Shown here: piece after piece, positions 3,890-54,715 of the stretch
How the letters are laid out: every line of letters begins with the position of its first letter
How positions within the stretch are numbered: the stretch's first letter is position 1
Assembly (NCBI GenBank): GCA_017535315.1
Contig: JAFXUD010000002.1
Coordinates: 310,001-374,000, forward strand
From: Victivallales bacterium
Lineage (GTDB): Bacteria; Verrucomicrobiota; Lentisphaeria; Oligosphaerales; Oligosphaeraceae
Direction of reading: 5' to 3'
Length of the DNA stretch: 64,000 nucleotides
The notes under the pieces: model-generated
Database searches by the model: none
What the model was told of the DNA's origin: nothing
What the model saw: only the letters and a program-made list of their open reading frames with translations
Position numbers and translations under genes: made by a program

Positions 3890-4858
3890 TCAGGTTTTGT
3901 TTTTTCTGTTCATGACAATCTGGTAGATGAGAATTGCGATGAACGTGATGGCGAGAAGAAGGGTGGAGAGCGCGTTGATAAGGGGCATGGAGCCGCGCTT
4001 TATCATGCTGTATATTTGGATGGGGAGGGTAGTTGACCCAGGCCCAGCCACGAAGAATGAAATGACGAAGTCATCGAGTGAGAGGGTGAATGCGAGGAGT
4101 GCGCCAGAGAGGATTCCTGGGAAGATGACGGGGATGAGTACCCGCCAGGTGGTGGTCCAGGAGCTTGCTCCCAGGTCTTCGGAGGCTTCGATGATGCTGT
4201 TGTCGAAGTCCTGCAATCGGGAAAGCACGGCCATGGTCACATAGCTTAGGCAGAAGGTGATGTGGGCGATGATGACAGTTGTCAGCCCCAGTTCGACCTT
4301 GAGGGCGACAAAAAAGAGCAGCAGACCGATGCCCAGCAGGATTTCAGGCACGATGAGAGGGGTGTAAACCAGGCAGTAGTGTGCGTTCTGGATATACCCT
4401 TTGTATTTGTGGAGGGCGATGGCCGCCAGGGTGCCGAGGATGGTGGAGGCGGCTGTGGCGATGACGGCGACGATCAAGGTGCTTCTCAGTGCATACCAGA
4501 TTTCGCGGTGCTTAAAGAGCTGGACATACCATTTGAAGGTAAAGCCATCCCAGCTGCCGCTGGTTCTGGAGGCGTTGAAGGAGTTGATGACGAGGAGGAT
4601 GATGGGTAGATAGAAGAAGAGGAGGATTCCCCAGGTCAGGATGCCAGGGAACTTGTTGAATACAGGTTGATGCCTATCAATGAAGGCGGCGATACGGCTA
4701 CGCACTGGAGAGAGCAGCACTAGCAGAAGCAGAAAGAGGATTGTCTGCGTGGTTGCCATTGGGAACGATTTCCCCAGTAGGTTCGCGACCAATCCGTATG
4801 TCAGGAACGCCAGCAGGATGGTATGGATGGCGCGGATGAATTTTTCCAGATGAGTCAT
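3890..4858 (-). CDS. potC: Spermidine/putrescine-type ABC transporter permease PotC
   Basis: Inner-membrane permease of a polyamine-type ABC importer, 322 residues. The core has the expected transmembrane helices and the cytoplasmic EAA loop (EASEDLGASSWTTTWRVLIP) that contacts the ATPase. SFNASRTSGSWDGFTFKWYVQLF is typical of PotC. The protein is longer than usual PotC (about 260 residues) because roughly 85 residues with two predicted membrane segments (LLAFLTYGLVANLLG and TILFLLLLVLLSPV) precede the standard first helix. Its start codon overlaps the potB stop by one base, showing translational coupling. No periplasmic binding protein gene follows, so the substrate (polyamine or another small cation) is inferred from the family. 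Confidence 0.88.
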   Translation of the reverse strand: MTHLEKFIRAIHTILLAFLTYGLVANLLGKSFPMATTQTILFLLLLVLLSPVRSRIAAFIDRHQPVFNKFPGILTWGILLFFYLPIILLVINSFNASRTSGSWDGFTFKWYVQLFKHREIWYALRSTLIVAVIATAASTILGTLAAIALHKYKGYIQNAHYCLVYTPLIVPEILLGIGLLLFFVALKVELGLTTVIIAHITFCLSYVTMAVLSRLQDFDNSIIEASEDLGASSWTTTWRVLIPVIFPGILSGALLAFTLSLDDFVISFFVAGPGSTTLPIQIYSMIKRGSMPLINALSTLLLAITFIAILIYQIVMNRKNKT

Positions 4859-5736
4859 CAGACGACCTCCTTCGCGGGTTTAGGTTCATTCTGCCCCTGC
4901 TTTTTACCTTTGAGGAAGTAGAGCATGGGAATGAGAAGCGCCAGGATGAGGACTGATGCAAGGGCACTTGCCGCTGGAAGGTTTCTGTCCGTGAAGGTGC
5001 GTGCAACGATGACGTTGCCAATCATTTCGGAACCCAGTCCGCCGACCACATCGGGGACCACATAGCTGCCGAAGCTGGGTATGAGCACCATCAGGCAGGC
5101 GGAGACAACGCCCGCCTTGATGCCTGGGATGAAGACGTCGAAGAAGGCCTTCAGCTTGGATGCGCCCAGGTCCAGTGCCGCCTCGATGAGAGCGAAGTCG
5201 AACTTTTCGGCTGCGGCGTAGATGGGGAGGATGGCGAAGGGGAGTTCCGTGTAGATCATGACGATGAGCACGGCTTCGGGACGATAGAGGAGGAGCGTGT
5301 CGTTGTCAATGAGATGGAGGAAGACCATGGCGTGCTTCAGGAAACCATCGGGATGGAGGACTGCCTTCCAGGCGAAGATGCGGATGAGGAAGCTCGTCCA
5401 GAATGGGATGATGGTTAGAAACAGGATGAGGTTGCGTTTCCAGGCCGCGCATCGTGCGATGTAGTATGCGATGGGGATGGAGACGGCAAGGGAGATGACG
5501 GTGGTGGCCAGGCTGAGCCAGACCGTCCGCCAGATGATCTGCGGATAATTGGGGTTCCTGAGCGAGAGGAGGGTTCGCCAGGTCCAGCCGTCGGCGACGC
5601 GTCCGTCAAAGGAGGCGGGCTTGAAGGCGATGGCGAAGATGATGAGGGTAGGGAGCAGGAAGAAGACAGTCAGCCAGACGAAGGATGGAATGGTGAGCAG
5701 AACTTCCCGCAGGGTTTTCTTGCGGGTGCTGTTCAT
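4858..5736 (-). CDS. potB: Spermidine/putrescine-type ABC transporter permease PotB
   Basis: Inner-membrane permease, 292 residues, partner of PotC. It begins with a short basic segment followed by IPSFVWLTVFFLLPTLIIF, has a periplasmic loop with the WRTLLSL..NPNYPQIIWRTVWLSL pattern, and carries the EAA loop EAALDLGASKLKAFFDVFIP followed by IPSFGSYVVPDVVGG, typical of PotB. The start codon overlaps the end of the ATPase gene by 4 bp (ATGA), and the end overlaps potC by one base, so potA-potB-potC form one transcription and translation unit. The polyamine assignment rests on family resemblance. Confidence 0.9.
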   Translation of the reverse strand: MNSTRKKTLREVLLTIPSFVWLTVFFLLPTLIIFAIAFKPASFDGRVADGWTWRTLLSLRNPNYPQIIWRTVWLSLATTVISLAVSIPIAYYIARCAAWKRNLILFLTIIPFWTSFLIRIFAWKAVLHPDGFLKHAMVFLHLIDNDTLLLYRPEAVLIVMIYTELPFAILPIYAAAEKFDFALIEAALDLGASKLKAFFDVFIPGIKAGVVSACLMVLIPSFGSYVVPDVVGGLGSEMIGNVIVARTFTDRNLPAASALASVLILALLIPMLYFLKGKKQGQNEPKPAKEVV

Positions 5737-14082: not shown

Positions 14083-14973
14083 ATGTCCATCGTTCTGGTA
14101 GATGCCTATTCGCAGATTTTTCGGATGTTCTATGCAGTTCCGATGCTGAACAATCCGAAAGGCGAGCCAGTGAATGCGCTGATGGGGATTGAGAGGTTGC
14201 TTCTCAGTCTCGAGAAGGGGCTTCCCAGCGAATACGGTGCCGTCGTCTTTGACAAGGGAAAGGCGACACGCCGTTGCGCACTCTGTCCTGAGTACAAGGC
14301 GCAGCGTCCTCCTATGCCAGAGGCACTGCGCCCGCAGATACCCAGGATTATGGAGCTGCTGGAGGCGTTTGGCTGGCCCATCCTCATGCAGGAGGGGCTT
14401 GAAGCGGATGACATCATTGCCGCCGTTTCACGGCACCGTGAGAATCAGGACGTCCACATCATCACAGGTGACAAGGATATTGCGCAATTGACGGAAGACC
14501 CGCATGTGCATCTTGCTACCTGTGACAAAGGGGATGCCTGGAGCTTCGGCGGTCCCGAAGTGGTGGAAAACAAGTTCGGTGTGCCACCAGCCCTGCTGGG
14601 GGATTATCTGGCTCTGGTGGGGGACACCTCCGACAATATCATAGGCATCGCGGGTATTGGTCCAAAGACCGCTTCCAAGCTATTGACGGAGTGCGGTGGG
14701 CTGGATGGCATCCTGGCGGACATCAGCGGCAAAGTCTCCAACGCGAAGCTGGCTGCCAAGCTGGAGGAATCGCGCGAGTTGATTGTCCGCAACCGCAAGC
14801 TGGTTGCCTTGGACAATGTGCTGCCCGATGGTTGGCAGGGATTGGAATCCATCCGCCGTAAGGTCCCTGACTGGGGAAAACTGGTTGCCTTGGCCGAGCG
14901 AAACGCTTTCAACAAGTTGCTGCCTGTCCTGAAAAAGCACCGCGATGAGGCCGCGCAGCCGATGCTCTTTTGA
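14083..14973 (+). CDS. Stand-alone 5'-3' exonuclease (DNA polymerase I N-terminal type)
   Basis: A 296-residue protein equivalent to the 5'-nuclease/flap endonuclease domain of DNA polymerase I, without polymerase domains. Metal-binding and helical-arch features are visible: VLVDAYSQIFRMFYA, VVFDKGKATRRCAL, LEADDIIAAV, ITGDKDIAQL and GDTSDNI followed by the helix-hairpin-helix GIAGIGPKTASKLL. Such proteins remove RNA primers and flaps in replication and repair. I chose the ATG at 14083 rather than a GTG 21 bases earlier because MSIVLVDAY is the usual N-terminus. The tight spacing to the isomerase gene suggests co-transcription. Confidence 0.88.
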   Translation: MSIVLVDAYSQIFRMFYAVPMLNNPKGEPVNALMGIERLLLSLEKGLPSEYGAVVFDKGKATRRCALCPEYKAQRPPMPEALRPQIPRIMELLEAFGWPILMQEGLEADDIIAAVSRHRENQDVHIITGDKDIAQLTEDPHVHLATCDKGDAWSFGGPEVVENKFGVPPALLGDYLALVGDTSDNIIGIAGIGPKTASKLLTECGGLDGILADISGKVSNAKLAAKLEESRELIVRNRKLVALDNVLPDGWQGLESIRRKVPDWGKLVALAERNAFNKLLPVLKKHRDEAAQPMLF

Positions 14974-18271: not shown

Positions 18272-18275
18272 AAGG

Positions 18276-18323
18276 AACCTAAACGACGCAAGGGAGCACG
18301 ACCTTTTTGTCGTTTAGGTTTTT
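18276..18323. terminator. Bidirectional hairpin terminator built from 9-bp repeat units
   Basis: AACCTAAACGAC (18276-18287) pairs perfectly with GTCGTTTAGGTT (18309-18320), followed by TTT on the plus strand and preceded by A/T-rich sequence on the minus side. It lies 5 bp after the U32 stop and ahead of the convergent gene's stop. Its arms contain the same units (GGAACCTAA, ACGACGCAA) as the dispersed 9-bp arrays. Confidence 0.65.
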
Positions 18324-18772: not shown

Positions 18773-19175
18773 GTTGCCTCCTTGTATTTATGTGTTGTCC
18801 ATTTATGAATCCAATTTAGATTGCTCTTTAAAATAATATGGATTTCATTAATGAATATTTCTAGTATAACACACGAAAAAATCCTGTCAAGTAGATTTTT
18901 GCAAAATAATTCTAAAAATGAAAAATCAGAAGAGGAGGGAGAAGAGTTGAAAATAGCAAAAAGAATGAGAAAACCCAAAAAAAGAAAGCATATTATGGAT
19001 AAGGGAGAAAAAGGGGGGAGGGAATTATGTTGTGAAAAAACAGCTGACTCACAGAGGGGAAAGACAACAAAAAGTGTTATGCTTTTTGTGCGTTCCTTGC
19101 GTCGTTTGGGCCCTTTAGGTTGTTTGTGTCGTTTAATAACCGTGCTTAAATACAGGGAAGAATAAGGAGAAGAAC
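18773..19175. repeat. AT-rich intergenic region with a 9-bp repeat array (19088-19132)
   Basis: Most of this 400-bp gap between divergent genes is A/T-rich and gene-free. Near its right end lie consecutive 9-bp units TTGCGTCGT, TTGGGCCCT, TTAGGTTGT and TTGTGTCGT (19097-19132), preceded by a ninth-like partial unit. In reverse complement these read ACGACNCAA, matching the arrays near 25.5 kb and 44.7 kb. The next gene is preceded by AAGGAGAAGAAC, a good ribosome binding site. Confidence 0.55.
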
Positions 19176-25444: not shown

Positions 25445-25468
25445 GAGGGGGCGATAACAAGAAGCTAA

Positions 25469-25581
25469 GGGACATTAGGGACATCAGGGACTTGAGCGAC
25501 ACAAGTGGCATAAAAGATGGTAGTCTTTCTATTGCTATTTGGGGGGATGTCCCCTTACGTCGTTTATGTCGTTTAGGTCCT
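25469..25581. repeat. Opposed arrays of 9-bp repeat units between mutS2 and dxr
   Basis: Array 1 (25469-25513) is GGGACATTA, GGGACATCA, GGGACTTGA, GCGACACAA, GTGGCATAA. Array 2 (25555-25581) is TTACGTCGT, TTATGTCGT, TTAGGTCCT, which in reverse complement reads AGGACCTAA, ACGACATAA, ACGACGTAA. The two arrays face each other, so a transcript across the gap could fold back. The last units of array 1 match 44762-44779 closely. Confidence 0.7.
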
Positions 25582-25590
25582 TTTAGAATA

Positions 25591-30140: not shown

Positions 30141-30161
30141 GATGATTAAAAAGGGACGGGG

Positions 30162-30284
30162 GATAGGAGACACTGGACGGAGGACAGGAGATTACTGGAC
30201 GCGGGACATGGGATGCGGGACGAAGTTGTCCCATGTCCCGCGTCCCATGTCCCGCGTCCCATGTCTTACGTCCCAAGTCCGTTG
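30162..30284. repeat. Opposed heptamer arrays (GGGACRY) between infB and rbfA
   Basis: This 120-bp stretch consists of GGGAC-type units in one orientation (30162-30222) followed by their reverse complement (30227-30260). GGACGCGGGACATGGGA (30197-30213) pairs perfectly with 30229-30245 and also with 30243-30259, offering two alternative 17-bp stems in the infB-rbfA transcript. Confidence 0.7.
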
Positions 30285-30293
30285 AAATAAGCA

Positions 30294-32563: not shown

Positions 32564-33994
32564 TCACTGCTTGAGAGCAGCTTTGGCTGCTTCGATGACA
32601 GCTATAGCACGAGCATTGTCAAACCCTTCCAGATCTGCAATGTCCTTTTCATCTTCGACGGCTGCAATCCCCTCCAGACTGGAGAAGCCGTTTTTGACAA
32701 GTACCTCTGCGGCTTCGGGGCCAATTCCCTCCACCGCGCCAATAGTCTCGATTGCTTTGCGAAGGCCACTTTCAAACTCGTTTTCTTCAACGGGTTTTTC
32801 GGATTTGCGGACTTCGATTCTCCAGCCCGTGAGCGTGGAGGCCAGTCTGGCATTTTGCGCCCGTTTCCCGATTGCAAGGGAAAGCTGGTCCTCGGGGACT
32901 TCGACTGTGGCTTTCTTGGAAGTCGCATCAAGAGTCATGTTGATAATCTTTGCGGGTTTCAAGGCATTTGTGATGAATGTGACGGGATCGGCGCTCCATT
33001 CGATGATATCGACCTTTTCGCCGCCAAGTTCACTGACCACGTTTCGTACCCTGCTTCCGCGCTGTCCGACACAGGCACCGACAGGATCAACGCGAGGTTC
33101 TGAAGAAGTGACCGCGATTTTGCTTCTGAATCCAGGATCGCGTGCAATGGATTTGATCTCCACGGTACCATCGCTGATTTCACTGACTTCGCGCTCAAAA
33201 AGTTTGGTGACAAACTCGGGTTTGGAGCGGGAGATGACCATGGCTGCGCCTTGGCGTTCTGGGTTAACCTCTATCAGCACGGCTGTGACCAGATTGCCTA
33301 TTTCAAAGCTCTCGCCAGGAATTTTTCCTTCGCGAGGCAGAACAGCCTCGTCATCTAGGTGGCGCGGGTTTTCTGCGGACGAATGGATGGAAGCATTGCC
33401 CAGTTGGAAGCCCACCATGACTCCTTCGCGGTCAATGCTGCGGACTTCGCCTGTAACAAGTTGGTTGAGCCTTTCCTGGTACTGGAGGCAGATTTTCCTG
33501 CGCTGTGTCTGGCGGATGCGTTGACAGAAGAGGTTCCAGGCGGCCTGTGCAACGATGCGGCCAAAGAAATCGGGGGAGAACTCTAGCTCCAGTTCAGTGC
33601 CCAGATCGATCTTGTCCGTCTCGTTGTCGGATGAATCCTTCGAAAGGGGTTCCTCGCCTGGGGTTGATACAACCCGAACCGTGAACTGTGGATTGCTGAA
33701 CAACTCCTGCACCTTGTCAAGGGCAATCTCATCCCCAGGGTCTTCGACCTTATTGACGACATACAGCTTAACGATGCATTTGATATTGCAGGTGGCGCGG
33801 TCGATAACAACTTTGATGTTTTTGTTGTATTTAGTCGCTTTACGTGCGGCAGACTGCATAGCCTCTTCGAGAAGAACCAGCAGCGTTTCCCTCGGAATGT
33901 CATATTCTCTTTCCAAAACATCCAGTTGATTAATCAACTCTTTGTTTTTGGGCTCTTTGCTCTTCTTTTGCTGAGTAAATGAATCCTTGTCCAT
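32564..33994 (-). CDS. nusA: Transcription termination/antitermination factor NusA
   Basis: A 476-residue RNA polymerase-binding factor. The N-terminal domain (ELINQLDVLEREYDIPRETLLVLLEEAMQSAARKATKY) precedes an S1 domain (VTGEVRSIDREGVMVGFQLGNA), two KH domains (RDPGFRSKIAVTSSEPRVDPVGACVGQRGSRVRNVVSELGGEKVDII; SLAIGKRAQNARLASTLTGWRIEV) and a C-terminal helix-hairpin-helix segment (VEGIGPEAAEVLVKNGFSSLEGIAAV). I start at MDKDSFTQQ because GGTGG lies just upstream; a longer frame from 34039 lacks family similarity. It heads the nusA-infB-rbfA-truB-ribF cluster. Confidence 0.96.
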   Translation of the reverse strand: MDKDSFTQQKKSKEPKNKELINQLDVLEREYDIPRETLLVLLEEAMQSAARKATKYNKNIKVVIDRATCNIKCIVKLYVVNKVEDPGDEIALDKVQELFSNPQFTVRVVSTPGEEPLSKDSSDNETDKIDLGTELELEFSPDFFGRIVAQAAWNLFCQRIRQTQRRKICLQYQERLNQLVTGEVRSIDREGVMVGFQLGNASIHSSAENPRHLDDEAVLPREGKIPGESFEIGNLVTAVLIEVNPERQGAAMVISRSKPEFVTKLFEREVSEISDGTVEIKSIARDPGFRSKIAVTSSEPRVDPVGACVGQRGSRVRNVVSELGGEKVDIIEWSADPVTFITNALKPAKIINMTLDATSKKATVEVPEDQLSLAIGKRAQNARLASTLTGWRIEVRKSEKPVEENEFESGLRKAIETIGAVEGIGPEAAEVLVKNGFSSLEGIAAVEDEKDIADLEGFDNARAIAVIEAAKAALKQ

Positions 33995-44734: not shown

Positions 44735-44779
44735 GGAACTTGAGCGACTTGAGTGACTTGAGCGACGCAAGTGGCATAA
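44735..44779. repeat. Array of five 9-bp repeat units
   Basis: GGAACTTGA, GCGACTTGA, GTGACTTGA, GCGACGCAA and GTGGCATAA are contiguous. The last two units nearly match 25496-25513, in the same order. It sits in the 240-bp gap between the beta-barrel gene and the glycosyltransferase gene. Confidence 0.7.
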
Positions 44780-44851: not shown

Positions 44852-44881
44852 AAAAATGGCGCAGTTAACTGCGCCATTTTT
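44852..44881. terminator. Perfect 30-bp palindromic terminator
   Basis: A perfect palindrome centred on GCAGTTAACTGC with A-tract and T-tract outer ends, so it can terminate in both directions. It lies downstream of the beta-barrel gene stop. Confidence 0.75.
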
Positions 44882-54679: not shown

Positions 54680-54715
54680 GGGACTTGAAGGACGGGAGGG
54701 ACTTGAGGGACTGGA
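54680..54715. repeat. Four 9-bp repeat units upstream of the Gfo/Idh gene
   Basis: GGGACTTGA, AGGACGGGA, GGGACTTGA and GGGACTGGA are contiguous, in the same orientation as at 25469 and 44735. The surrounding gap (54498-54851) is otherwise AT-rich apart from the palindrome at 54788. Confidence 0.65.

Follow-up and report, generated by a model that had tools for sequence, protein, structure and literature searches.

Reports of short-unit intergenic repeats in bacteria are scattered (heptamers in cyanobacteria, Xanthomonas, and Beggiatoaceae), and no function has been agreed on. Heptamer arrays of the types GGGNATC and GGGGA(C/T)T were described in Xanthomonas and Nostoc (Rehm et al., 2015; PMC4692102), with 70 and 75 convergent pairs reported for two Xanthomonas genomes (PMC4692102). 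TAACTGA heptamer repeats occur in Beggiatoaceae, Cyanobacteria, and Bacteroidetes (MacGregor, 2015; PMC4679880). REPs are single palindromes of 20–40 bp with a GTAG or CGTC tag, the GTAG types being found with a RAYT transposase (PMC3733652, PMC2817692).

Here, arrays of a 9-bp unit were found to be scattered by hundreds through the gaps between genes of a Victivallales bacterium. The initial annotation of this DNA knew of no named repeat family with such a unit. This held for the 9-bp unit itself when Rfam and the literature were searched; the kind of repeat, however, is already represented by heptamer pairs (PMC4692102) and REP/BIME (PMC3733652). We regard the Victivallales arrays as a new and well-countable case of a type of bacterial repeat that is still poorly understood.

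Arrays in the window and architecture of the elements

The window (the whole stretch of 64,000 nucleotides that was analyzed) corresponds to positions 310001–374000 of contig C78; the genome measures 4.9 Mb and is assembled in 96 contigs. It contains the following arrays and neighboring features:

18274–18320, no strand assigned: degenerate short opposed pair, CCTAAACGAC...GTCGTTTAGG, directly behind the stop of a peptidase U32 gene; below the array score
19088–19132, minus strand: very degenerate array, below the array score; not a stable hairpin (−5.1 kcal/mol)
25469–25513, plus strand: family A arm of five units in the dxr/mutS2 gap, GGGACATTA GGGACATCA GGGACTTGA GCGACACAA GTGGCATAA
25555–25581, minus strand: opposed three-unit arm, minus-strand letters AGGACCTAA ACGACATAA ACGACGTAA
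30154–30280, no strand assigned: 7-bp-unit hairpin of the same design, GGGACAT/GCGGGAC vs. GTCCCAT/GTCCCGC
44735–44779, plus strand: solitary family A arm of five units, with the inner end GCGACGCAA GTGGCATAA as in the 25469–25513 arm
44852–44881, minus strand: ordinary terminator-like hairpin, AAAAATGGCGCAGTTAACTGCGCCATTTTT, between the 44735–44779 array and the stop of the 44946–46184 gene
54680–54715, plus strand: solitary arm of four units, GGGACTTGA AGGACGGGA GGGACTTGA GGGACTGGA

The unit is 9 bp long and has the consensus GnGACnnnA, which can also be written AGnGACnnn. The arrays noticed initially at 25469–25581, 44735–44779, and 54680–54715 were present and scored above shuffles, while the two at 18274–18320 and 19088–19132 were present but too degenerate to reach the array score. 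A scan of the window for at least three consecutive units gave five matches vs. a mean of approximately 0.2 in dinucleotide-Markov shuffles; four of them were arrays that had already been named, and the fifth, at 33166–33192, was weak. The gene names dxr and mutS2 were correct according to Pfam. The arms at 25469–25513 and 25555–25581 fold together, the region 25460–25590 reaching −45.2 kcal/mol. The degenerate pair at 18274–18320 folds as a hairpin of −23.9 kcal/mol, and the gap holding the 7-bp-unit hairpin (30141–30293) folds to −82.6 kcal/mol. Paired arms in C78 fold to −45 to −121 kcal/mol, as expected from the earlier suggestion that opposed arrays could form hairpins.

Most arms in the window are solitary. 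Many arms outside it form close convergent (opposed) pairs, typically approximately 20 nt apart. Among 201 distinct arms, 109 had four units and 54 had five. The G-rich arm nearly always comes first: the order was plus–minus in 57 cases vs. minus–plus in 5 in the Victivallales bacterium genome, and 38 vs. 0 in other genomes; for TTAGTGG heptamers, it was 14 vs. 0. At least three families have the unit in common and differ in their inner ends. Family A, the window's own, is characterized by GCGACGCAA-GTGGCAYRA, which was found at 81 sites genome-wide with up to two mismatches and at none in the control; this is the order of units noticed initially at 25.5 and 44.7 kb. Family B (GACAGC-AAATGGCAT-loop) occupies approximately 50 loci and has 10-bp inverted ends, TAATACTCCT...AGGAGTATTA; family C is defined by GCGACGAGG-AGGGCACGA. 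Tandem half-elements of 63–65 bp and tandem whole hairpins were also present. Because complete arms and complete hairpins recur at many sites, in part with common flanks, they are shown to have been copied as wholes; the families with their common inner ends and flanks support what had been supposed from two arrays.

Abundance, genomic placement, and distribution

In the 4.9-Mb genome, the four-unit pattern gave 271 matches vs. 1 in the reversed control, and the two-unit pattern gave 44 vs. 1. A position-weight scan of C78:1–390000 yielded 42 arms above the threshold, effectively all of them intergenic; the reversed sequence gave 2, and three order-2 shuffles gave none. Genome-wide statements are based on these pattern counts and on the stretches that were read, among them C78:1–390000 in full. 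Long perfect arrays exist, such as GGGACTTGA repeated 14 times at a contig end and GGGACGTGA repeated 9–10 times. Several contigs of the assembly end within or near arrays (C74:1–128, the end of C49, the end of C85, and the start of C93), and therefore the array copy numbers are probably underestimated.

The arrays were strongly enriched over shuffles and essentially absent from coding sequence, and the idea therefore survived the refuting conditions set in the initial annotation. They are intergenic and mostly near stop codons. Of the 39 arms scoring at least 18, 34 were located in gaps, which total 41 kb, and 5 in ORFs, coding DNA amounting to 349 kb. The ORFs with these five arms barely exceed 100 codons and look spurious. 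The 53 placed elements were distributed over co-directional (28), convergent (21), and divergent (4) gaps, while the gap bases of C78 are 58% co-directional, 18% convergent, and 24% divergent; these counts carry no strict probability because the copies are related. The arrays are enriched between convergent genes and depleted between divergent ones. The median distance from a placed element to the facing stop codon was 48 bp. Ordinary terminator-like hairpins adjoin several arrays (44852–44881 in the window; C78 at approximately 14270–14320 and at 141030), and at those sites the arrays are therefore not simply terminators. In particular, the 44735–44779 array is dispensable as a terminator of the 44946–46184 gene since the ordinary hairpin intervenes. 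Array slots could not be told apart from other gaps by hairpin energy alone.

Within the class, 198 genomes were searched and 20 had the four-unit pattern, many of them using genome-specific letters at positions 6–8; the pattern was near-absent in close relatives. G042, G046, and G052 are less clear, as they gave many control matches too. The paired-arm pattern, searched in 388 genomes of the phylum, matched 204 times in the Victivallales bacterium genome, was also found in 7 further genomes, and never matched in a control. Exact scans of named genomes revealed opposed pairs also in Acidobacteria, Alistipes, Hydrogenedentota, and one Streptomyces. The GnGAC core was built into the first paired-pattern search as well as into the scan of named genomes, and hence its recurrence in several phyla cannot serve as independent evidence for kinship or common descent. 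Ruminant-gut Alistipes/Rikenellaceae carry long opposed GAGACAACA / GAGACGAGA arrays with a common loop-side motif around TGATACCCGACTTCGTTGTTGTC; these arrays are a separate repeat family. In Streptomyces sp. WAC05374, which is far from Lentisphaeria, two opposed GCGACNNAA array pairs are present within 400 bp (4721–5099). Further 9-bp-unit families with another core were observed in G001 (AGCTCTAGA) and G028 (TTCTGGANN / ATCCAGAAN). In viral contigs, 77 stretches carry the pattern; 43 of them have every arm inside ORFs, and paired arms were found in 0 of 77. Spread by phages was rejected on these grounds.

Slot turnover, sequence constraint, and possible explanations

In the sister species G001, MutS2 is 93% identical, and most aligned DNA stretches are 78–90% identical. 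Its dxr–mutS2 slot holds two GAGCTTGCGC...GCGCAAGCTC hairpins. A TTAGTGG/CCACTAA hairpin is present at the slot matching C78:154434, a longer TTAGTGG hairpin at that matching C78:195224, three copies of a 55-bp unit at that matching C78:159606, and two short hairpins at that matching window position 30154. At the C46:81103 slot, a GGGAC 9-mer array occurs in both species with different letters at positions 7–9. Nothing comparable was found at the slots matching window position 18274 and C78:191188. Tandem repeats were present at 5 of 7 array slots in G001 vs. 1 of 9 other gaps (Fisher p = 0.035), which is a small sample of 16 mapped gaps with automatic gene calls; the repeats at the array slots were mostly unrelated to the 9-bp unit. 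No empty site was recovered cleanly at base resolution, and this was counted against dispersal. G001 also has many TTAGTGG...CCACTAA heptamer hairpins replacing 9-mers, always with the TTAGTGG arm first. Among tandem repeats in the gaps of C78, periods of 9 (24 repeats) and 7 (18 repeats) and their multiples were common, and none had a period of 4–6, 8, or 10–13. The gap heptamers of C78 (TTAGTGG, TTAGGGA, GTCCCAT, and AATTAGC) often form opposed pairs too.

Family B was aligned using 25 distinct copies. Unit positions 2 and 6 were variable in most units of both arms, with a pairwise diversity of mostly 0.3–0.7, vs. 0–0.17 for most other unit positions (the innermost unit excepted) and approximately 0.1–0.7 for the flanks. 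The core AGnGAC was nearly invariant among the copies of this one well-aligned family; retrieval by similarity favors conserved arms, yet it cannot alone pick out positions inside the unit. Variation at positions 2 and 6 of one arm is largely independent of that in the other. No compensation between left and right arms was detected at the variable positions in 22 outer-aligned four-by-four elements, and swapping the right arms between elements cost only 1.6 of 65 kcal/mol. Strict selection for base pairing between the arms was rejected on this basis. Comparison of the arms in their best register gave a small partner excess (0.699 vs. 0.643). Pairing therefore constrains the arms weakly at best, and the core letters look constrained as such. 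A nearly fixed core together with largely independent variation at positions 2 and 6 suggests sequence recognition and speaks against a constraint by G-quadruplexes or by perfect pairing.

G-quadruplexes had been a leading idea for the four-unit preference and were put forward for the heptamers of Xanthomonas/Nostoc. Four or more GGG tracts are present in 133 of 201 arms, and four units is the mode here too, but the G4 motif was no more frequent than after shuffling of the variable positions between arms (0.423 vs. 0.464). Position 2 often breaks the G-tract, and the dialects GCGACGAGA/GTGACGAGA and GAGACAACA keep the array plan without G-tracts. Selection for G-quadruplexes was rejected accordingly, and we consider it highly improbable that the arrays are G-quadruplex elements. 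As the 9-bp family shows a four-unit convergent plan at gene ends without G4 enrichment, this structure is also unlikely as the general reason for the four-unit preference.

Our best guess, unproven and held with somewhat less than even confidence, is that the arrays are interspersed non-coding repeat elements spread, in a REP/BIME- or MITE-like manner, by an enzyme reading the core, and surviving in gene-end gaps. A complete element would consist of two opposed arms, each usually of 4–5 AGnGACnnn units, with approximately 20 nt between them. A trans-acting DNA-binding enzyme would recognize the tandem cores and spread the elements as in REP/BIME or MITE. Copies would survive or be favored mainly in gene-end gaps, where they may add a stem-loop to read-through transcripts. 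Solitary arms, including most of those in the window, and the 63–65-bp tandem arms would have arisen from copies by decay or recombination. Dispersal of whole elements is supported by the families with common inner ends and flanks, the four-unit mode, the fixed opposed order, the position-specific constraint without compensation between arms, the convergent enrichment and divergent depletion, and the absence or replacement of arrays at sister-species slots. It is weakened by the missing enzyme, the missing target duplications, and the unpaired copies on viral contigs. No target-site duplication was found at any offset in 11 copies with recognizable ends. The presence of Y1 transposases does not track the arrays: G007 and G014 are array-rich and gave no Y1 match, and no arrays lay beside the Y1 loci examined, which covered two of the three Y1 genes of the bacterium's own genome. 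Mobilization by RAYT/Y1 was rejected for these reasons.

The arrays could instead be selected RNA structures at transcript ends, acting as two-way terminators or 3′-end protectors, for which any strong stem-loop serves and the repeats supply the stem. This is unlikely in our opinion. The position near stop codons and the enrichment in convergent gaps agree with it, as do the unrelated hairpin-forming repeats at several sister-species slots, with the association given above, and the T found at positions 1, 2, and 3 after the 3′ arm in 79, 87, and 61% of flanks. However, TTTT followed in only 30 of 114 flanks, ordinary terminator-like hairpins adjoin several arrays, the arms do not compensate for each other's changes, and many arrays are solitary arms lacking a partner. 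Binding of a chromosome-organizing protein (e.g., gyrase, as with BIMEs) at gene ends that collect supercoils would make the location functional and the spread secondary. BIMEs are binding sites for several proteins (PMC2817692), and conservation of the core as sequence, opposed arrays, and preference for convergent gaps are consistent with a putative binder. Nevertheless, the unit letters vary by genome, and with a presence in 20 of 198 class genomes and near-absence in close relatives, such a role would have to be dispensable or replaceable. We consider this explanation rather improbable. Simple-sequence repeats arising by replication slippage and drifting neutrally where harmless would account for the long perfect arrays and for the abundance of both period-7 and period-9 repeats in gaps; the bacterial heptamer excess has been attributed to slippage (PMC4692102). 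Left unexplained are the fixed polarity of opposed pairs, the common inner ends and flanks at unlinked sites, the four-unit mode, and the confinement of variation to positions 2 and 6. The slippage reading is already strained, and we find it very doubtful.

Comparison with described repeats

The fixed core with its two variable positions and the replacement of one repeat family by another at corresponding slots lead to concrete tests, namely for a binder of AGnGAC arrays and for the gain of whole elements. A known RNA family was rejected, as a tRNA was the only hit above the Rfam gathering score in the 139 kb searched. Integron attC sites were set aside from the layout, the hairpins being kilobases apart and beside genes of both orientations.

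Like TAACTGA heptamers, the 9-bp arrays are short-unit intergenic tandem arrays with a patchy occurrence over unrelated phyla; the former, unlike them, are direct repeats (one indirect) just upstream of start codons, whereas the 9-bp arrays are opposed and near gene ends. Family B resembles MITEs as a short near-palindrome with common 10-bp inverted ends at approximately 50 loci. It differs in that no target duplication was seen in the 11 copies and no parent transposase beside the Y1 loci examined, and family A does not have such inverted ends. With REP/BIME, the arrays have in common the many copies, the frequent opposed pairs, the co-directional and convergent gaps, and the closeness to 3′ ends. 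Their arms, however, are tandem arrays of 9 bp and not palindromes of 20–40 bp, the aligned family B copies have no GTAG/CGTC tag next to their arms, and the occurrence of Y1 genes is not correlated with that of the arrays, which leaves no RAYT link. The Xanthomonas/Nostoc heptamers are likewise dispersed and intergenic, prefer four units (here 109/201 arms), form convergent pairs, lie near stop codons and rarely between divergent genes, and vary among close relatives. In contrast to the 7-bp GGGNATC type, the unit here has 9 bp and a degenerate GnGAC core, the arms have no enrichment of the G4 motif, and copied families with common flanks are demonstrated.

The 9-bp family thus resembles both heptamer arrays and REP/BIME and has the defining features of neither: it is set apart from the former by unit length and the lack of a G4 preference, and from the latter by the lack of a tag and of a RAYT link. 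One could speculate, at a fairly low probability, that convergent arrays of 7- or 9-bp units form a single, general class of elements in bacteria of several phyla, with genome-specific letters, an enzyme reading the core, and unrelated unit families swapping at gene-end slots, so that the plan and the slot would be conserved and the sequence would not. Among published repeats, the Xanthomonas and Nostoc heptamer arrays come closest, followed by the REP/BIME palindromes.
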